IMG/VR virus record: IMGVR_UViG_3300017951_000168
Coordinates: 1-21,527 of that record
Direction: 5' to 3' (one strand)
Length of the DNA stretch: 21,527 nt
From: a virus
A program made the position numbers and the translations under genes. Numbering within the stretch: the first letter of the stretch is position 1; each line of letters opens with the position of its first letter. Shown one piece after another: positions 4,920 to 20,740 of this stretch. The notes under the pieces are model-generated. The model had not been told where the DNA came from. It searched no databases and saw only the letters and a program-made list of their open reading frames with translations.

Positions 4920-5084
4920 TATAAAACAAACTTTGCTATGATGCAACATCATAAGTACAGTTTAACAGAATTGGAAAATATGGTACCATGGGAGAGAGAA
5001 ATATATATAGCTCTTTTACAGCAACATATTAAAGAAGAGAATGAGAGGGCAAAAGCTCAAGAACAAAGAATGAGGAGAAAATAA
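4911..5084 (+). CDS. 51: Baseplate hub assembly catalyst gp51-like (likely reached by -1 frameshift from gp26)
   Basis: The frame encodes 'VNHYKTNFAMMQHHKYSL', 'ELENMVPWEREIYIALLQQH' and a charged tail, as in small gp51-type proteins of T4-like marine phages; T4 gp51 is an assembly factor needed for hub formation. The conserved sequence runs back through the in-frame residues Y-L-A-L-A-H-D-S-L to 4884 with no ATG. The only independent starts are GTG at 4911 (given here, 57 residues) and ATG at 4938 (48 residues), and neither has a ribosome site. I therefore think it is mainly made as the C-terminal part of a gp26-51 fusion spanning 4168-5084. Its TAA overlaps the next ATG (TAATG). Confidence 0.75.
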   Translation: MNHYKTNFAMMQHHKYSLTELENMVPWEREIYIALLQQHIKEENERAKAQEQRMRRK

Positions 5085-5416
5085 TGGGCGAAGAAGAAAT
5101 TAAAGCAAGTGGACATCACCCAGCGGATACTAACGGAGACGGAAAAGTGTCAAGAAAAGAACAGGAAATGTACCTGGAATTTAAAAGAAAAGAACTTGAA
5201 GACCTAGATGCAATGAGAGATGCACAACGTAAAATGGCATGGTTCGCATTAGGCGGTATGTTACTATACCCCTTTGCAGTTGTTATTGCAGTATTGGCAG
5301 GTCTTGAACAAGCAAGTAATATACTAGGAGATATGGCGGCAACATATTTCGTTGCAGTTGCTGGTATCGTAGCAGCATTCTTTGGGGCACAAGCACTTGG
5401 TGCTAGTAAAAAGTAG
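5084..5416 (+). CDS. Small EF-hand membrane protein, probable virion component
   Basis: The 110-residue protein carries one EF-hand/dockerin-type calcium loop, DTNGDGKVSRKE, at residues 15-26, with Asp/Asn/Asp at positions 1, 3 and 5, Gly at 6 and Glu at 12. A charged helix follows (residues 27-50), then two hydrophobic segments (about 52-72 and 85-105). It sits between gp51 and the tape measure with a TAATG overlap, so it is made with the tail hub genes. A hub-tip or tape-measure-associated protein that enters the host membrane during DNA injection is plausible; a holin is less likely by position. Family name not recognised. Confidence 0.75.
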   Translation: MGEEEIKASGHHPADTNGDGKVSRKEQEMYLEFKRKELEDLDAMRDAQRKMAWFALGGMLLYPFAVVIAVLAGLEQASNILGDMAATYFVAVAGIVAAFFGAQALGASKK

Positions 5417-12922: not shown

Positions 12923-13363
12923 CTACTTTGGCCAACATTTTTTATATAACTCTGCCTCTAATTTATATGCTTCTTTTTCCCATGGTGCATTTTCATACTT
13001 ATAGTTGCGAGGTTTTCTTCCTTTCCATGAGTTAGTATATCCATCTAACTCCCCTCGTAAGTACTGTTTAGCGTGTACCATTTCGTGTGCCAGAGTCTGC
13101 ATTACTCTATACATAGGAAGACTTCTATTGCTCAACCTACGTGCTATTTCAATCTCTACATAACCATCTTTCTTATCTCCCCAGCACAATCCTTCTGAAC
13201 TTCCATCTAAATTGGTTTTAAATCTAATAAAAATTTCCTTTGAATACATTCTATGGATACCTAATTCTTCAGTTAGATTCCTAATATATTGAACAACTCT
13301 AGGCTTTTGACCGATACGGCCTCGAAGATATATGATTGGCATGATTAGTGTGTCTTTGTCCAT
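12923..13363 (-). CDS. SprT-like zinc metalloprotease
   Basis: The 146-residue protein carries the catalytic HExxH at residues 93-97 (HEMVH) in 'MQTLAHEMVHAKQYLRGEL', followed 31 residues on by 'PWEKEAYKLE', whose Glu is a likely third zinc ligand or helper. This is the SprT/Spartan-like arrangement seen in several marine T4-like phages. Substrate unknown; host Spartan proteins cleave DNA-protein crosslinks. Met8 (MPIIYLRGR, 13342) is an alternative start that avoids the 19-base overlap with the 66-aa gene. Confidence 0.83.
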   Translation of the reverse strand: MDKDTLIMPIIYLRGRIGQKPRVVQYIRNLTEELGIHRMYSKEIFIRFKTNLDGSSEGLCWGDKKDGYVEIEIARRLSNRSLPMYRVMQTLAHEMVHAKQYLRGELDGYTNSWKGRKPRNYKYENAPWEKEAYKLEAELYKKCWPK

Positions 13364-13617: not shown

Positions 13618-14205
13618 TTATAAGGAAGGAAAGGTTATTAACCCAACCGAATCCATAACTTGAATATTATTAATTACAGCAAGAGTTAATAAGGCATTTG
13701 GGAAGTGCAAGTCCTCAGGATTGTCTCCAGCAAGATGGATCATGTATCTTCCCCAAAATAATTTGAATAGTATTATTTCCCCATCGCTTGGGTTTTTACC
13801 TAATAGTGGATTTGCCTCGTAAACATTTGGATGGCTAAGACCACGAATAGTTGTATATGCGTCTAATGCATTGATTGCCCAGAAATAGGTCTTTATTTGT
13901 CTATCATCAAACTGTGAGAATCGTAACCCTTTCAGATTTACCTTTGACTGTAATGTTATCGACTTGATTGAAGCTTCTCTCCGAACACTTTCCAGCAGTG
14001 AACTGTGATAACAACACTCGAACCCCATCATAATTTCTTGTTTGGCCTTCGAGTCTAGCGCCCAAGTTGACGGCATCTCCAATGACGGAATAGTCAAATC
14101 GAGATTCCGATCCCATATTTCCGACGATGCAGTCGCCGGTGTTGATACCAATACCAACATCAATCCTAGGAAGGCCTTGATCTTCCAATTGTGCAATAAG
14201 TTCAT
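13618..14205 (-). CDS. Small protein with DUF5658-like end, overlapping the cyclase gene
   Basis: The downstream part, about residues 100-195, is the non-overlapping real segment: 'TYFWAINALDAYTTIRGL' and 'YEANPLLGKNPSDGEIILFK', a pattern of a small family in phages and bacteria (ALDAYTT...ANPLLGKNPS), often exported or membrane-bound. Upstream there is no ATG, GTG or TTG between the cyclase stop and Met60, so the start must lie inside the cyclase gene: Met59/60 (overlap about 120 bases) or Met1 (overlap 299). From Met1 the sequence 'KAFLGLMLVLVSTPATA' looks like a signal peptide with an ATA cleavage end. No ribosome site decides it. The start given is the longest form. It is the last gene of the late unit; no terminator follows before promoter 13569-13597. 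Confidence 0.6.
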   Translation of the reverse strand: MNLLHNWKIKAFLGLMLVLVSTPATASSEIWDRNLDLTIPSLEMPSTWALDSKAKQEIMMGFECCYHSSLLESVRREASIKSITLQSKVNLKGLRFSQFDDRQIKTYFWAINALDAYTTIRGLSHPNVYEANPLLGKNPSDGEIILFKLFWGRYMIHLAGDNPEDLHFPNALLTLAVINNIQVMDSVGLITFPSL

Positions 14206-15736
14206 CTGCTGCCTCTAATATTTCTACTGCTGTCCTTACAGCCATATCTGCATGATTTTCACATGGTAATGGTGCGTTCCAGAATGCCATAATACAATCG
14301 CCCATATATTTATCAATAGTTCCACCATTCTTGAGAATGATTTTTGTCATTGTATCTAAGTAATTATTTATAAGCTTTACTAACCCTTCTGGGTCATTAT
14401 TGTTTTTATAGTGTTCTGATATTGGTGTAAACCCAACAATGTCCATAAACAAGAAAGTCATTTCCTTTCTTTCTCCACCAAGTTTTAAAAGTGATGGGTC
14501 TTTCTGTAATAACATAACTTGTCTTGGGTCTAAGTAAGTTTCAAATTGTTTCTTAATTTGTTGTCTGAGAACAAACTGTTTATAGAAATTATTAAAGCTT
14601 GTTGATGTAAACAGCAGTATAAATAGCACTAGAGGATAACTAAGGTCTAAAAGTATCTGGAATTTAAACCATGCAAACCAAACTCCAAAGATAGATATAC
14701 CGAGAACCTTAATAAATGTAAATGAGGATATCCACAATGATGTATAATAAGCAGTTAGAACTACCACTAGACCAAATAGAAGCATTACCCCAATCTCCAA
14801 GGCATTTGCCCATATGGGCCGTGAAATCTGGGCCCCATCTATTATGGACTGCATTGCAGAGGCCTGAAGTGAATGTGCAGGTTTCATTCCAAATGGAGTT
14901 GGAATTTGAGCCGAAAGACCCTTTGCAGTTAGACCAATCAGAACAGTCTTACCCTGTAGATCAGGTAACTCACTGGACCCGTAATTTATATCCTGAAAAT
15001 GGGTATTAGGATTAATCCACATAGAACCATTACTATCTGAATTAATTCTAAACGGCCTTAAGATTATTTCTTCAATACCTGCTTCGTTTACTTTAACTGT
15101 ATATGATGGTTTCTGATTCATCACTCTTATAGTTTCTAAAGAGAATGCAGGATATAGCTCACCATTGATTTGAGATATCAGAGGGATTCTTCTTACTAAC
15201 CCATCCACCTCTGGCATACCATTTACAAGACCGTGGCCCCACGCTCCTTGTTCTAGCTGTGATATATTAGTAATAAGACCACTATATTTTATAACCCAGT
15301 CTAGCGGGTCTCCTGTACCAAATGTAGCAGAACCCACATAAGGTGCTGTAGATGATTTACCTGAATTATCAGCATCCTGTGCGAGTATAATACCATTATC
15401 ATTTATCCAAGATGCAAATACTTCATCACCACCAAATCTATCTGCCTCTGGAAACATAATTGTAAATCCTATTAGACCTGCATTTGCATTACGAAGATCC
15501 GAGATCATCTGCGCATATATTTGTCTAGGAAATGGATATTGGCCATGAACAGCCAGTGTTTCTTCTGATATATTTAATAATACTATTTGATCTGAATGTT
15601 TTTCTTCTATCGTGCCTATCATGGCATCGAATGTATTTAATCTGAATTGTTGAACCAGAGCCGGATCTAGCAATCTGATTCCTACTAAAAGTAAGAATAA
15701 GGCTATAGTCGCCCAGATAGATGTTATATATTTCAT
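13907..15736 (-). CDS. CHASE2-domain transmembrane adenylate cyclase (class III)
   Basis: With ATG at 15736 the protein has 609 residues and an ATGA overlap with the curlin-like gene before it; a longer start at 15781 is possible but less likely. Order: N-terminal helix (about 6-22), CHASE2 periplasmic sensor (about 30-305, including 'GFTIMFPEADRFGGD' and 'LQGKTVLIGLTAKGL'), three membrane helices (about 310-382), linker, class III cyclase domain (about 420-605). The catalytic set is complete: metal-binding Asp432 (FMDIVGFT) and Asp480, adenine-selecting Lys476 and Asp548 (DKYMGD, FDYSVIGD), transition-state Asn557 and Arg561 (VNLGARLE). K/D rather than E/C predicts cAMP, not cGMP, as product. 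Such cyclases are common in bacteria, often near FecR-domain genes, but unusual in a phage. Confidence 0.9.
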   Translation of the reverse strand: MKYITSIWATIALFLLLVGIRLLDPALVQQFRLNTFDAMIGTIEEKHSDQIVLLNISEETLAVHGQYPFPRQIYAQMISDLRNANAGLIGFTIMFPEADRFGGDEVFASWINDNGIILAQDADNSGKSSTAPYVGSATFGTGDPLDWVIKYSGLITNISQLEQGAWGHGLVNGMPEVDGLVRRIPLISQINGELYPAFSLETIRVMNQKPSYTVKVNEAGIEEIILRPFRINSDSNGSMWINPNTHFQDINYGSSELPDLQGKTVLIGLTAKGLSAQIPTPFGMKPAHSLQASAMQSIIDGAQISRPIWANALEIGVMLLFGLVVVLTAYYTSLWISSFTFIKVLGISIFGVWFAWFKFQILLDLSYPLVLFILLFTSTSFNNFYKQFVLRQQIKKQFETYLDPRQVMLLQKDPSLLKLGGERKEMTFLFMDIVGFTPISEHYKNNNDPEGLVKLINNYLDTMTKIILKNGGTIDKYMGDCIMAFWNAPLPCENHADMAVRTAVEILEAADELIAQLEDQGLPRIDVGIGINTGDCIVGNMGSESRFDYSVIGDAVNLGARLEGQTRNYDGVRVLLSQFTAGKCSERSFNQVDNITVKGKSERVTILTV

Positions 15737-16479
15737 TGACCTTGTGTAACTGATACTGTACAACCACCGACTGTATAACAAGTTTGAGATAGTGAATATG
15801 ATTGAGCAGTTGTTCCTAACTGTATCAGTGTTAAATCTGTTCCGTATGTTCCATCAAGTGTAATGTTTGCTGTATGAGAAGTATTTGCACCTTTTTGTCT
15901 TAACGTAACTAAATTATCATCATTATATATTGTTAGATCCATATCTTTTGCACCACTTGATTGTTGTCTTCCATTAATTTCGTTCCAATCTCCTGCAAGA
16001 TGAAAATTAAAATCGTGTCCGTCTGTTGCATCACTTTGATTTGTTTGGTGCCATTTAAGTGAATTATTACTACCATATAAATCTATTTCCATATAGTGTC
16101 CGCCACCTTCAGCACCATCATAAGTATATGAACCATCACTCTGCCATGCAACACCTTGTGCTAATTTAAATGTATTATTTGAACCTGATACTTCATCAAA
16201 TAAAATTTTATTAACATTATTTGTAAAATTATATTGGACTATGTGAATATCTAGGTTAGGTGCATTGTTAATATAAGAAGCAGAATCTAACATGCCAATT
16301 TGATTATTATATCCTACTTGCTCGATTTCTAATGATAGATTATCACCACTTTGTTCTATTGTAATTTCATTATCGTCTGCGTATAATGGCATTACTAAAA
16401 AGAAACATGACCCCCATGGTAATATCCAATATTTAAATATAAATTCTCTTATCTTCTTCCAGTCCATTCTAACCACCAT
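15733..16479 (-). CDS. Exported curlin-like repeat protein 2
   Basis: The 248-residue protein has a basic start and hydrophobic core (about 13-34, FIFKYWILPWGSCFFLVMPL) ending at 'YA-DD', a likely signal peptide. The mature start 'NEITIEQSGDNLSLEIEQVG' matches the CsgA-type repeat I-x-Q-x-G-(x)-N-x5-Q. Further strands with Asn turns follow (GSNNTFKLAQG, GSNNSLKWHQ, NLVTLRQKGANT, TLIQLGTT, SVTQGQ). Two cysteines (234, 240) near the end are matched in the sister protein. It resembles a fibre subunit or nucleator. Met5 (16467) is an alternative start. It lies between FecR and cyclase genes. Confidence 0.72.
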   Translation of the reverse strand: MVVRMDWKKIREFIFKYWILPWGSCFFLVMPLYADDNEITIEQSGDNLSLEIEQVGYNNQIGMLDSASYINNAPNLDIHIVQYNFTNNVNKILFDEVSGSNNTFKLAQGVAWQSDGSYTYDGAEGGGHYMEIDLYGSNNSLKWHQTNQSDATDGHDFNFHLAGDWNEINGRQQSSGAKDMDLTIYNDDNLVTLRQKGANTSHTANITLDGTYGTDLTLIQLGTTAQSYSLSQTCYTVGGCTVSVTQGQ

Positions 16480-16534
16480 CTGAAGTACCTTCTTCCTTCT
16501 CCGTACGCTGCCGATCTTAATTTATTATATTTCA

Positions 16535-17653
16535 TTAATTTACCTGATTGATAACGATAAAAATATCTTCACCGTCATTTCCTGTTATATCTCCTTCCCA
16601 TGTAGGAGTGTTTGTAGCAAGAGTAAAGTTACCACCTGTTCCGACTTTAACTTTAATTACTCCATTTACATTTCTATATAGTACTAAACTTCCATCTTCC
16701 AAATAAACATTATATTGTGATTCTTCATTAAATCCTCTAGTTGCTCCTTTGATATCAAACTCGCCTAAAGAATCAAATAAATCTGATGAATCAATTATGT
16801 CTAGCACATCAACTAAATATTCTACGTTTAGTTCATCAATATCTAACTCACTAAAATCTAATTCCGGTTCACTTTCTTCTAGTGCGTCTTTTTCTAGTTC
16901 GTTAAATTCTAAGAAGTCTATATCCAATAAACCTCTATCATCATTTTGTTCATCAGCCAACTCTTCTTCAATTCTATCTTTTACTTCAGGTGGAGGAGCA
17001 ACGATAAACATATTATCAATTTGAGTTGGAGTAATTCCATTTAATTTTACTACTTGGGTGGGTGCGGTATCTAATGAACTTACCATTGTTGCTTGATAAG
17101 CTTCATCAAGAGTTACTACACCACCTAAATTAGCCACCTCTATTTCTCCAGACGGATCTCCATTTTCATCTGGCAACAATATAACTAATGATCGGCCTAA
17201 TTCATCTACTGTTGTAGTAAAATCAGTACCTCTAATTGCTATTGTTGCAGTCGGAGTAGATATATCAATATTTGCATTATTAACTAATCCTAATCTGCCT
17301 GAAGCAAACCTTGCCGTACCCATTGTGAACTTCATTGTCATCTTGGACAGGGATGGGTCAGCATCATAATATATTTCATCTATTAGAACTTCACTATGTT
17401 CTTTTAATGCTAATTGAGCCTTATCTAAAAACTCTATTAACATTCTCCCCTGTCCAGTTTCTGCAATATCATTTAATTCGATAGCAGTATTAACAGCCAT
17501 ACTTACAGACTGTTGGTTTCTTACTATCTGACCAACTCCTGTGGACTCGACTATACTTCCAATATCATCATCTGCATATACAGGCAAAGATAAAAGAAGT
17601 ATAATACTAAGAGTCGCTAGAGCTGTCTTGCTGATTAATCTGAATTGTAGCAT
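16535..17653 (-). CDS. Periplasmic FecR-domain protein
   Basis: The 372-residue protein begins with a signal peptide (ISKTALATLSIILLLSLPVYA, cut about 27). A FecR domain follows (about 55-150) with 'GQGRMLIEFLDKAQLALKE' and the signature 'STPTATIAIRGTDFTT'. Residues about 215-300 are strongly acidic (EEELADEQNDD, ESEPELDFSELDIDEL), and a small strand-rich end follows. Unlike the iron regulator FecR it has no membrane helix, so it is probably a soluble sensor, scaffold or fibre partner. It overlaps the curlin-like gene upstream by 47 bases. FecR-domain proteins paired with CHASE2 cyclases are known in bacteria; here the curlin-like gene sits between them. Confidence 0.82.
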   Translation of the reverse strand: MLQFRLISKTALATLSIILLLSLPVYADDDIGSIVESTGVGQIVRNQQSVSMAVNTAIELNDIAETGQGRMLIEFLDKAQLALKEHSEVLIDEIYYDADPSLSKMTMKFTMGTARFASGRLGLVNNANIDISTPTATIAIRGTDFTTTVDELGRSLVILLPDENGDPSGEIEVANLGGVVTLDEAYQATMVSSLDTAPTQVVKLNGITPTQIDNMFIVAPPPEVKDRIEEELADEQNDDRGLLDIDFLEFNELEKDALEESEPELDFSELDIDELNVEYLVDVLDIIDSSDLFDSLGEFDIKGATRGFNEESQYNVYLEDGSLVLYRNVNGVIKVKVGTGGNFTLATNTPTWEGDITGNDGEDIFIVINQVN

Positions 17654-18344
17654 TGTCTGATGTAATATCTAAATCTATAATCGCATTTGGTGTAGCACAA
17701 CCCGTAATATTTGTAGCACAAGTTCCACTGATTTGATCAATATCAATGTCAGCAGAATCTCCACTTAATACTACAGTAAGAGATTGAGAACCATCATTCT
17801 GTAATGTGTTAATGTTATTGCTGTCTCCAGTAATATCAAAATTCCAAGTTACATCATCAGCCTCAAAATCTAAATCAAATACGTTAGAACTACCAACCAG
17901 AATTAAGTCAGCATCCAATCTTTCAGCACTATATAAATATCCTTGATCTATATCAAATGTATTACTATCTCCAGTGATATCAAAGTTATAATTTGAATCA
18001 TCAGCAGAACCTATGTAACCAATATTCCAGTCCAATACATTTGAATCTCCTGTAAAAGAAATAGTAAAATCAGATGTATCTGAAATAAGAGGTCCATAAA
18101 TTATATTTTGATTACCTATCATATCTATATCAAAAGTTAAAGATGATCCAGTGATAACCATATCAGAAGCAGTAGTTGAAAAATCATTACCGCCGATCTT
18201 GTTACCATATCCAATCTGATCAATATAAAGTGTTAAAGTATTACCACTTTGTTCAATCATGATTTCGTTATCATCAGTTGCTTGTGCCAAAATTGAAGGT
18301 GCTAAAAATGCACTTAATACTAAACTAGTTAATACCTTCTTCAT
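17607..18344 (-). CDS. Exported curlin-like repeat protein 1 (amyloid subunit candidate)
   Basis: The 245-residue protein opens with a clear signal peptide (KKVLTSLVLSAFLAPSILA, cut after Ala20 or 22). Its mature start 'NEIMIEQSGNTLTLYIDQIG' follows curlin logic (I-x-Q-x-G ... Q-x-G-x-x-N). It then carries repeats of alternating hydrophobic strands joined by G-D/S-S-N turns at about 99, 125, 151, 173 and 195, 22-26 residues apart (FTGDSN, ITGDSN, VGSSN, ITGDSN, SGDSA). The body is Asp-rich, unlike Gln/Asn-rich CsgA. Cys209 and Cys216 lie near the end, as in the sister gene. It starts 20 bases inside the csgG end, with AGAGG before ATG. CsgG and CsgF next door suggest that it is the exported cargo. 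Confidence 0.78.
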   Translation of the reverse strand: MKKVLTSLVLSAFLAPSILAQATDDNEIMIEQSGNTLTLYIDQIGYGNKIGGNDFSTTASDMVITGSSLTFDIDMIGNQNIIYGPLISDTSDFTISFTGDSNVLDWNIGYIGSADDSNYNFDITGDSNTFDIDQGYLYSAERLDADLILVGSSNVFDLDFEADDVTWNFDITGDSNNINTLQNDGSQSLTVVLSGDSADIDIDQISGTCATNITGCATPNAIIDLDITSDNATIQINQQDSSSDS

Positions 18345-19350
18345 TTTCGTTTTCCTCTATTAGAGAGTGCCTTTGGTTTACCCCACCTATTTGGTGAGGA
18401 TGCCTATGGCCCTCAGTTAAATTCCAGAATTTACGGTCATGGCCCTGGTAGATTAATTCCAGTACAGCCGCCTCAATGGCAGATCGTACTGCATACGTCA
18501 CGCTCTCATTATTTCCCACTCCGTCCTCATACTCTAATAGTCTTGTACCTTGTTCATAGAACCTAAATACATCACCACTAGAGCCGTAAGAAAGTACCGA
18601 CTTCTTAGCCTGGACGTTTAATAAAACTTCCCCCGTTAGAACTGAAACTGCTCTTACTGCAACAGTTACAACATCTTTACGGTACATTCTACTATAACCA
18701 ATCCCGAGAGTTCTGGCACCACGGCCTCCTGTCTCCAAATTAGTATCGTAGCCTATTATTCCGCCCTCTATGATTATTCCTGCGAATAACATGGGGCCTA
18801 ATTCCTTTGCTTCCGTGCCTTGACTTCTTGCCAAATCTTGACGGCCGCTTCGGATAATTTGTCTTTCTCTTACAAGGTTATCAATACCTTGCCTTTCTAC
18901 TACTCTAAACCAAGTGCCACCACCTGCAGTTTTAAGAGCATCTATAAGTAATTCTGTTCCACCTTGGGTCACTGCTGTAGAAAATGAAGCAACATTATCT
19001 ACTGATTTTCTTTGTCCTGTTTTATCAGTAAACCCATAAACTGCCACTACTGGCATTTCTTCTGCTGGTGGTAAGTTAAGTAATTCTACAAATGAAGGTA
19101 GTCTGATAGCCATTGGATTGTCTACGCAGATATACTTTCTTGACATTACTTTTTGCCATTCGTTATATCCTTGTCTAGCAACTGTGACTAAATCATCATT
19201 AATAACACCATCGTTATCAAAATCTTTATCGTAACCTTCACTGTATATTCCTGCTAGATCATTGCAGTCTCTCGGATCTGAACTCCATTGTGGTACAGAA
19301 GCGCAACCAGTTAAAAATAATAATCCTGCTGTTAATAAAGTTCTAACCAT
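18325..19350 (-). CDS. csgG: CsgG-like outer-membrane lipoprotein channel
   Basis: The 341-residue protein has a lipobox, LTGC, with Cys16 for lipid attachment. The core matches CsgG closely: 'VAVYGFTDKTGQRKS', 'SFSTAVTQGGTELLIDALK', 'FRVVERQGIDNLVRERQIIR', 'IIIEGGIIGYDTNLETGGRG', 'ARTLGIG', and 'VRAVSVLTGEVLLNVQAKKS' with 'LSYG...VFRF'. In bacteria CsgG is a nonameric pore that exports curlin. The constriction loop, aligned by eye, keeps Phe56 but has Asp and Ser for Tyr51 and Asn55 of E. coli. About 80 extra residues lie before the core, with a calcium-loop-like 'DKDFDNDGVINDD'. It overlaps csgF by 8 bases. Confidence 0.92.
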   Translation of the reverse strand: MVRTLLTAGLLFLTGCASVPQWSSDPRDCNDLAGIYSEGYDKDFDNDGVINDDLVTVARQGYNEWQKVMSRKYICVDNPMAIRLPSFVELLNLPPAEEMPVVAVYGFTDKTGQRKSVDNVASFSTAVTQGGTELLIDALKTAGGGTWFRVVERQGIDNLVRERQIIRSGRQDLARSQGTEAKELGPMLFAGIIIEGGIIGYDTNLETGGRGARTLGIGYSRMYRKDVVTVAVRAVSVLTGEVLLNVQAKKSVLSYGSSGDVFRFYEQGTRLLEYEDGVGNNESVTYAVRSAIEAAVLELIYQGHDRKFWNLTEGHRHPHQIGGVNQRHSLIEENENEEGIN

Positions 19351-19846
19351 TGTCTGGATCCTGCCCGAAATTACCAGTTCCTACTGGAATCTCTATAACA
19401 GTCTCTGAACCATCCTCTGCTACAATCGTCATTCTAATAACTTCTGAACCATCTGCATTAGTAATTACTTCATAGGTAACTGTATTACCTTCTAAAACAA
19501 ATGAACCAAATCTTACTGATCCGTCATTAGAAAACATAGATTCCACTAATTGTTTTGCCATCTGAGCATATATTCTGCTCTCTAAATTTCTGATAAATTT
19601 TGCAAGTACGCTATTATCTTCTTCCCTTTCTGCTGCTTTTCTTGCTGCTTCTAAAGCATCTTCAATTGCTTTCTTTCTAGTGTGTTCTATATTATCAATT
19701 GTAAGGTAATGTTGACCTGTACCAACTCCACTAAAGGAAGGATTCTTAAATCCAAACTTTATTTCATCTGCATATGCAGGTTGGGTAATACCAAATATTG
19801 ATACTACAAAAATACCACATAATATAGCAACTTCAAACTTGCTCAT
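19343..19846 (-). CDS. csgF: CsgF-like curli assembly factor
   Basis: The start at 19846 is chosen because AGGAGGA sits 5 bases before it; a longer reading from 19885 overlaps the 92-aa gene needlessly. The 167-residue protein has a signal peptide (about 1-26, ending QPAYA) and mature N-terminus 'DEIKFGFKNPSFSG', which matches CsgF 'TFQFRNPNFGG', the part that inserts into the CsgG channel. After this come a helical Ala/Glu-rich stretch and strands at the end (NADGSEVIRMTIVAEDGSET). CsgF couples the pore to curlin nucleation at the surface. Next gene csgG overlaps by 8 bases. Confidence 0.85.
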   Translation of the reverse strand: MSKFEVAILCGIFVVSIFGITQPAYADEIKFGFKNPSFSGVGTGQHYLTIDNIEHTRKKAIEDALEAARKAAEREEDNSVLAKFIRNLESRIYAQMAKQLVESMFSNDGSVRFGSFVLEGNTVTYEVITNADGSEVIRMTIVAEDGSETVIEIPVGTGNFGQDPDNG

Positions 19847-20111
19847 TATTTCCTCCTCGCTTATTGGTCTTTTTCTTTTTTTCATTCTCTCTATATTCTA
19901 AGATTACATTTACTTTTTGTTGTAATCTAATTAAATCTTGATCTAACATTCTTGTCTGATCAATTACTCTTATCAACGCAATGTGCATTTCTTCTAACTT
20001 AGGTTCTATGTGTTCATTTATATACGACCAAACATAGTATATAAAATATCCCATCCCAACTGCCATTACTGCTGGGAATCCGTAATCTGATACTAGTTGT
20101 GCCACATCCAT
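19833..20111 (-). CDS. Holin-like single-pass protein with coiled tail (92 aa)
   Basis: There is one N-terminal membrane helix (residues about 11-30, FPAVMAVGMGYFIYYVW) with a short exposed start (MDVAQLVSDYG), followed by a coiled-coil tail (35-75) and a very basic end (KKKKTNKRGG). This resembles BhlA/UviB-type phage holin-like proteins in layout. The 98-aa gene upstream has the same layout, so the two may be paralogues. It starts directly after that gene's stop, with AGGAGA before the ATG. Position after the lysozyme supports a lysis role, but a part of the curli cassette is possible. Confidence 0.65.
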   Translation of the reverse strand: MDVAQLVSDYGFPAVMAVGMGYFIYYVWSYINEHIEPKLEEMHIALIRVIDQTRMLDQDLIRLQQKVNVILEYRENEKKKKTNKRGGNNEQV

Positions 20112-20408
20112 TTAATCTCTCCTAGTATCTATTTTACCATCTTCTATAAAGTTTTCTGCTCTTGCTATTCTTTCAGTATCTGGTCTTAAATGTAAAGCAG
20201 TACTTACAAGTAAGTCAATCTTTATCATTTCATTACTCATTGTTCTACATCTATTTTCTAAACTTTTTGCAAAGATAGTAAGAGTATCAATCTTTTCTAC
20301 TATCCCTGCGAGTATTTGTTTTATAACAATAAAAATAAATACACCCATAACAAGTGATCCTGCTATAGGCGCTCCAACGTCTGCAATGAGTTTGAACACT
20401 TCTTCCAT
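20112..20408 (-). CDS. Holin-like single-pass protein (98 aa)
   Basis: A single membrane helix near the N-terminus (about 11-36, GAPIAGSLVMGVFIFIVIKQIL) is followed by a helical cytoplasmic tail (SLENRCRTMSNEMIKIDLLV) and a charged end. Same layout as the 92-aa gene that follows at once. The ATG lies 6 bases after a TATAAATA box, leaving essentially no leader and no ribosome site, so it may be translated from a leaderless mRNA. Confidence 0.68.
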   Translation of the reverse strand: MEEVFKLIADVGAPIAGSLVMGVFIFIVIKQILAGIVEKIDTLTIFAKSLENRCRTMSNEMIKIDLLVSTALHLRPDTERIARAENFIEDGKIDTRRD

Positions 20409-20414
20409 ATATTC

Positions 20415-20422
20415 TATTTATA
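20415..20422 (-). promoter_or_regulatory. T4-type late promoter for the holin-like/curli cassette
   Basis: The minus strand reads TATAAATA, ending 7 bases before the 98-aa ATG (20408). With T4 spacing the first transcribed base is 20409 or the A of the ATG itself. It follows the hairpin at 20449-20467, so it appears to begin a new late transcript carrying the holin-like genes and the curli cassette. Confidence 0.75.
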
Positions 20423-20448
20423 AGAAAAGTGCTCTTAGATGCTATAAT

Positions 20449-20467
20449 CCCTTCAATAATTGAAGGG
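20449..20467 (-). terminator. Hairpin after the 87-aa gene, probable terminator or processing site
   Basis: CCCTTCAA (20449-20456) and TTGAAGGG (20460-20467) form a perfect 8-bp stem with a 3-base loop, extendable by A/T pairs. It starts 10 bases after the 87-aa stop on the minus strand. No T-run follows (GATTATAGC), so it is a weak intrinsic terminator at best, or a 3'-end stabiliser. Confidence 0.55.
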
Positions 20468-20476
20468 AATTATGCT

Positions 20477-20740
20477 TTAGTGTGTGAATGCTACTGCTAC
20501 AGCTTTAACACCAGTTATGCCAGTCCCTACTTCAAGAGTTTCTGTGATACCTTTACGGATAACAATAACTTCTCCAGAAGCAACAGTTACAGTTCCGGTT
20601 ACGTCTGAACCATTTTTTACTGTAACTAATTGAACAGCAGTATTAGTATTTAATACTCTAACAAGTGAAGCACGACCAAGATTAGAAGCAGTGTCACTAA
20701 GTGCCACTTCTGATCCTAATAGCTTAATTGTTTGTGCCAT
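20477..20740 (-). CDS. Small strand-rich phage protein, possible virion part (87 aa)
   Basis: The protein reads 'MAQTIKLLGSEVALSDTASN' and ends 'ITGVKAVAVAFTH'. Alternating hydrophobic strands (VRVLNTNTAVQLVTVKNG, GTVTVASGEVIVIRKG) suggest a small beta sandwich. Similar short proteins are common in marine phage genomes and may decorate the virion; function unknown. AGGAG lies before the ATG, and it overlaps the end of the 64-aa gene. Confidence 0.78.
   Translation of the reverse strand: MAQTIKLLGSEVALSDTASNLGRASLVRVLNTNTAVQLVTVKNGSDVTGTVTVASGEVIVIRKGITETLEVGTGITGVKAVAVAFTH

Follow-up and report, generated by a model that had tools for sequence, protein, structure and literature searches.

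A candidate exported protein overprinted on the adenylate cyclase of a marine phage curli cassette

A curli gene cluster was described in pelagimyophages together with the idea of 'sibling capture' (Zaragoza-Solas 2020, PMC7029224). The complete set, to which FecR, a second curlin and an adenylate cyclase belong, was then reported from myo- and podoviruses, along with its worldwide occurrence, field transcripts and ideas on aggregation and superinfection (Wittmers 2022, PMC9599517), and for the version in phage Melnitz a role in lysis was proposed (Buchholz 2022, PMC9004378). Here we analyse the curli cassette of IMG/VR virus record IMGVR_UViG_3300017951_000168, a fragment of a T4-like marine phage whose entire 21,527 bases are called the window below. 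The published pelagiphage type VIII secretion (curli) module has the order CsgF, CsgG, curlin, FecR, curlin, adenylate cyclase (PMC9599517), which is the window's order. The cassette is a member of this known module, and the preliminary description of this DNA erred in regarding a set with cargo and cyclase as undescribed. The published module is led by one or two genes named as histidine kinases, whereas the window has two short membrane proteins (S1 and S2) without a HisKA domain. What appears new, as far as openly licensed papers without their supplements show, is a gene overprinted on the cyclase, here called T, together with late promoters, the S1/S2 link and a curlin-like end of the FecR-domain protein; T, the overlap, the late promoters and the CHASE2 domain of the cyclase were not found in the searched text of Wittmers 2022. 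We consider it likely that T is an undescribed exported protein overprinted on the cyclase in marine curli phages, that the cyclase motif GIGINTG, read in another frame, encodes its signal peptide, that the tail of the cyclase and the gene have spread together as a recombining cartridge, and that the FecR-domain protein is a fibre component and not a regulator.

Related loci were taken from two scans of viral contigs, as the best 160 matches (159 distinct loci) of 559-578 relatives per query; they are the closest relatives, some being overlapping slices of one contig, and not a random sample. The order S1, S2, csgF, csgG, curlin, FecR, curlin, cyclase was found in all 55 viral loci with full context, with T added at the end of the cassette in about two thirds of them. 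HTVC008M (NC_020484) and Melnitz (MZ577097) keep the same order, S1/S2 pair included. This conservation is far beyond chance and, with the Pfam matches (Table 1), bears out the earlier view of a conserved curli-type secretion block with candidate cargo. The seven reading frames from csgF to T were also correctly placed and ordered on the minus strand, and among them only FecR and curlin-like 2 are separated, by exactly 55 bases (16480-16534), every other neighbouring pair overlapping.

The most unusual feature of the cassette had been missed. The terminal small protein was taken merely to adjoin the cyclase; in fact the two genes share 299 nucleotides (nt), the ATG of T lying 298 nt ahead of the cyclase gene end, in a different frame and within the catalytic part. 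In 57 of 61 T-bearing loci the T frame runs on without a stop for at least 290 nt within the cyclase, and in the remaining four (L048, L049, L076, L084) T has almost no overlap and a different signal peptide. In T-less loci the open stretch of this frame never exceeds 71 nt (40 of 40), a 41st locus ending at the contig edge. The cyclases of HTVC008M and Melnitz, 45% and 35% identical to the window's, are likewise without T, and the overlapping frame is not open. When cyclase codons were resampled, the observed opening was reached in 0 of 2000 trials for eight sequences and in 1 of 2000 for a ninth. Loci retrieved by the non-overlapping part of T alone had the overlap in 11 of 11 cases.

Synonymous change is also restricted where the two frames coincide. 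For T carriers, the fraction of same-residue codon pairs that differ is 0.32 in the overlap, down from 0.46 at codons 301-525; for non-carriers, it is 0.51 upstream and 0.54 in the overlap stretch. Per-codon synonymous tests gave p = 3.5e-9 for carriers and 0.86 for T-less cyclases, values that are indicative only, given phylogenetic dependence. Recent spread of the tail was rejected as the sole cause of low synonymous change, since amino-acid differences in carriers stay near the upstream level (0.33 at 580-624, the last 45 codons, against 0.37). In carriers, cyclase residues 580-586 and 590-591 are fixed or almost so, against values of 0.4-0.8 in non-carriers, and they coincide with the conserved MGxxCC stretch of T. 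The second frame is open beyond chance, is conserved and limits synonymous change, as expected of overprinting.

These patterns suggest that T is translated. A rival account holds that T is not an independent gene, its frame being read by ribosomal frameshifting from the cyclase or kept for an RNA reason. The long same-strand overlap and a Shine-Dalgarno-like motif at only 36 of 56 starts would agree with it, but an ATG lies near the same place in all 57 overlap carriers, a frameshift there would destroy the cyclase core, the four relatives nearly free of overlap have T with its own signal peptide, and cyclase residues are fixed at T's conserved stretch. We give this account the smallest chance of the alternatives weighed here, and favor T as a gene in its own right.

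The history of the overlap is not a simple one. A single origin on the cyclase tree is not supported: on the tree of the first 545 cyclase residues, the overlap state changes at least 10 times. In three carrier/non-carrier pairs of near relatives (L017/L021, L091/L103, L034/L061), the cyclase bodies are 0.78-0.85 identical and the tails 0.27-0.49. Such like bodies with unlike tails point to exchange by recombination, and suggest that cyclase tail and T pass between phages as one piece. In one locus (L131) the second half of T is lost and a carrier-type cyclase tail is kept (0.87 identity), with stops in the overlap frame.

In its alternative frame, the cyclase motif GIGINTG codes for the predicted signal peptide of T. 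T-less cyclases have an equally hydrophobic +1 frame there (medians of 2.63 and 2.53 for the T-less and the T signal region), so the resemblance of the T N-terminus to a signal peptide was discarded as evidence in its own right. An ATG stands at the corresponding place in 27 of 40 T-less cyclases. With its hydrophobic +1 frame and this ATG, the cyclase motif offers a ready signal-peptide-like stretch, from which T may have recruited its own. Past the cyclase, the C-terminal 95 residues of T are modeled as three helices, with a predicted local distance difference test score (pLDDT) mostly above 90. T was found in no phage of the annotated collection searched, and a divergent alignment of T C-termini made for the viral search held no conserved stretch. 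Our guess is that T works alongside the curli proteins, being either exported or located in a membrane.

Table 1. Features of the curli cassette and its flank in the window.
Feature	Position	Strand	Match or remark
T, 195 aa, exported (predicted), codons 1-99 overprinted on cyclase, C-terminal DUF5658-like helical domain	13618..14205	-	
Two-frame region, 299 nt, cyclase 3' end / T 5' end	13907..14205	-	
CHASE2 class III adenylate cyclase, 609 aa from ATG	13907..15736	-	CHASE2 2e-37, Guanylate_cyc 2.9e-19
Curlin-like protein 2, exported (predicted)	15733..16479	-	PF07012 Curlin_rpt 2.9e-4, slightly over curated cut-off
FecR-domain protein, signal peptide, curlin-like C-terminal strand DIFIVINQVN	16535..17653	-	PF04773 1.9e-7
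Curlin-like protein 1, exported (predicted), G-[DS]-S-N repeat turns	17607..18344	-	
CsgG outer-membrane lipoprotein pore, lipobox LTGC	18325..19350	-	PF03783 1.1e-53
CsgF	19343..19846	-	PF10614 1.1e-12
S2, 92 aa, S1 paralogue, phrog_18771; likely published 'histidine kinase' position	19833..20111	-	
S1, 98 aa, phrog_18771, N-terminal membrane helix and coiled-coil-like tail	20112..20408	-	
T4-type late promoter element TATAAATA	20415..20422	-	directly upstream of first gene (S1)
9-bp hairpin, stem CCCTTCAATTATTGAAGGG symmetric	20448..20468	.	between gene 20477-20740 and cassette

The transcription unit had been taken to start at csgF. Its real start lies further upstream, at 20408, with two small genes, S1 and S2, and a late promoter. 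In 58 of 95 distinct loci the element TATAAATA occurs in the 120 nt ahead of S1, its usual distance from the start codon being 13 nt, and in 25 of 97 it precedes curlin-like 2; before S2, CsgF, CsgG, curlin-like 1, FecR and the cyclase it was seen in 0-2 of about 100 loci. This placement, together with the gene for the late co-activator gp33 in the window, argues for late transcription. The cassette is probably transcribed late from a T4-type late promoter, which favors the action late in infection that had been foreseen. The hairpin upstream, whose T-rich tail is on the plus strand only, is a possible transcription boundary. The cassette does lie downstream of lysozyme by position, as described earlier, with the gene at 20477-20740 and the hairpin intervening.

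S1 and S2 are closely tied to the secretion genes. With a query blind to the csg genes, csgF and csgG were present in 59 of 59 loci retrieved by S1/S2 that had enough downstream sequence. No HisKA domain matched in ten phage records, HTVC008M and Melnitz among them. From their position, S1 and S2 are likely the genes published as a histidine kinase; if so, that label fails for them, and it is the label, not their membership, that is in doubt. A holin assignment for S1/S2 was dropped, one weak 19-residue PHROG match being insufficient.

The pore components are well recognized. A profile of three phage CsgGs matched solved CsgG structures at 2.2e-64. The CsgE gate was detected in none of 11 phage records, in a search that did detect the E. 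coli control, and the pelagiphage and alphaproteobacterial modules are described as lacking CsgE (PMC9599517). The pore itself, and not a fibre, might then be the point: it would permeabilize the outer membrane and help to time lysis, as proposed for Melnitz. The late promoter, the absent gate, the lysozyme gene close upstream in about half of the loci and the argument of Buchholz 2022 (PMC9004378) speak for such a role. We nevertheless judge it unlikely, because it leaves unexplained why every full-context locus has a pair of conserved curlin-like cargo genes along with a FecR protein that ends like a curlin; moreover, lysozyme is adjacent in some loci only, and the window's unit follows a hairpin and a separate gene and has a promoter of its own. 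A late module that exports a fibre accounts better for these genes.

The candidate cargo consists of two homologous curlin-like proteins, both with N-termini that look like signal peptides when judged by eye. Curlin-like 1 matches Curlin_rpt at 2.6e-3, slightly under the curated cut-off, and the NCBIfam CsgA family at 5.5e-4. Its AlphaFold2 model, from 51 sequences, is all-beta (mean pLDDT 83, predicted template modeling score 0.77) and is compatible with, though no proof of, a stacked fibre subunit.

The FecR-domain protein carries a signal peptide followed directly by the FecR domain. It shows no N-terminal cytoplasmic anti-sigma part, and no sigma gene lies within the cassette, as a FecIR system would have. 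In 94 of 95 FecR relatives the C-terminal strand contains a conserved Gln and usually reads I-x-I-x-Q-x-N, a pattern shared with curlin repeats. Given the signal peptide and the curlin-like end, the protein is better explained as an exported accessory of the fibre than as an anti-sigma regulator, and the envelope sensing ascribed to FecR in the preliminary description becomes doubtful. The same features bear on the suggestion (Wittmers 2022, PMC9599517) that the pore brings nutrients such as siderophores or vitamins into the infected cell, FecR being the regulator for iron. The absent CsgE gate would suit import, but FecR looks exported and has a curlin-like end, the cassette contains no partner sigma or receptor gene, and secretion cargo genes are always there. 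We regard import as very unlikely and retain FecR as a probable part of the fibre.

The cyclase keeps the metal-binding Asp pair, the adenine-selecting Lys and the transition-state residues of class III enzymes: D447, K491, D495 and R576 are present in 102 of 102 relatives and N572 in 97 of 102 (numbering of the 624-codon open reading frame). The enzyme is predicted to be active. CyaD1 of Sinorhizobium meliloti likewise joins CHASE2 to a class III catalytic domain, and removal of CHASE2 makes its production of cyclic AMP (cAMP) constitutive (PMC5498481). The window's enzyme differs from CyaD1 in being phage-borne, linked to curli genes and overprinted by a second gene at its 3' end.

A cellular counterpart of the cassette was found in Hyphomonas sp. 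TMED17 (L170), where csgF, csgG, curlin, FecR and a CHASE2 cyclase, five genes in the window's order, sit on a 705-kb contig amid ordinary bacterial genes. This set differs from the window's in having neither S1/S2 nor T, a single larger curlin and a FecR protein without the curlin-like end. Its FecR protein is the only near-full-length relative of the phage one among 385 sampled genomes of the class; a single-sequence search with it at order level returned only itself, and a class-wide FecR profile search found mainly FecR domains within larger proteins. The chromosomal set agrees with the alphaproteobacterial origin proposed previously (PMC9599517).

Several further contigs carry cassette genes. 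Contigs of 217 and 340 kb (L322, L325) bear the cassette, which may occur in much larger phage genomes, or these may be misassemblies. Short or phage-like cassette contigs in genomes labeled Rhodobacteraceae, Synechococcus, Flavobacteriales, Pelagibacter and others (L164-L169, L171-L173, L179) are probably phage contigs misbinned into bacterial assemblies. A csgG-like gene is found in a 1.5-kb record named Salmonella phage S.Kent 1-2-1 (L004, OR851715.1), a low-coverage wastewater clone that probably does not come from that phage.

Outside the cassette, the window codes for baseplate and head-closure proteins, gp32 and gp59. Its gp32 is 56-57% identical to those of HTVC008M, Melnitz and cyanophages alike, and does not identify the host. 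In the window the cassette lies upstream of gp33/gp59/gp32, whereas in HTVC008M it is flanked by gp32 and the tape measure gene; its position thus differs while its gene order is kept. At 12923-13363 on the minus strand is a protein resembling zinc metallopeptidases, with an HEMVH motif and with SprT-like and Peptidase_M91 scores slightly under the cut-off. In the tail gene region, a 110-aa protein (5084-5416, plus strand) has an EF-hand-like loop, DTNGDGKVSRKE, and membrane helices; an open reading frame of similar length occurs at the corresponding place in HTVC008M and Melnitz.

From these observations we infer secretion, fibre formation and a benefit to the phage. CsgG and CsgF would form an outer-membrane pore. 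Both curlin-like proteins, probably joined by the FecR-domain protein, would be exported through it; on the infected cell and its debris they would assemble into a beta-stacked fibre or decorate one. The pair S1 and S2 would serve as dedicated inner-membrane partners. The CHASE2 cyclase would make cAMP under the control of its extracytoplasmic domain, and T would be an overprinted last gene whose C-terminal helical domain lies past the cyclase. The phage would most likely benefit through a change in how infected cells or lysis debris adhere or aggregate. As a whole, this explanation, a late curli module with fibre, cyclase and overprinted T, seems to us somewhat probable.

Besides the hydrophobic frame of T-less cyclases noted above, several results weigh against it. 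Clumping of infected cells was not seen in the Melnitz study (PMC9004378), which speaks against a strong aggregation role. The curlin-like 1 model had no significant match in the PDB by Foldseek, some of the weak ones being beta-solenoid adhesins. T also lacks a PDB relative by Foldseek, its fold matching unnamed viral proteins only, and the window's T scores 19.4 bits against DUF5658 (PF18902), below the cut-off of 25.2, with 38 of 48 T relatives matching that family at E <= 0.01 (best 9.6e-6). Finally, a cyclic-nucleotide-binding (cNMP-binding) domain was found in only 6 of 97 genomes of the Candidatus Pelagibacter order (probably SAR11), all six matches being weak (27.7-29.2 bits) and five lying in 870-aa open frames; none was found in ten phage records. 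With SAR11 genomes almost devoid of such receptors, cAMP signaling through a CRP-type receptor is doubtful for SAR11 hosts. CsgG in the same order amounts to one phage-like contig and four weak matches.

These results bear on a published puzzle, namely that very abundant ocean phages carry a fibre-export system absent from their hosts. With the late promoters, the S1/S2 pair and the FecR end, each component of the fibre reading can be put to the test separately; these features also speak against two annotations now in use, the histidine kinase and the iron regulator. The overlap between T and the cyclase is a natural experiment in overprinting, with dozens of phages that have T, dozens without it, and one in which it has been lost and is decaying. 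It indicates that an alternative frame of a conserved enzyme motif can supply a signal peptide ready for use.

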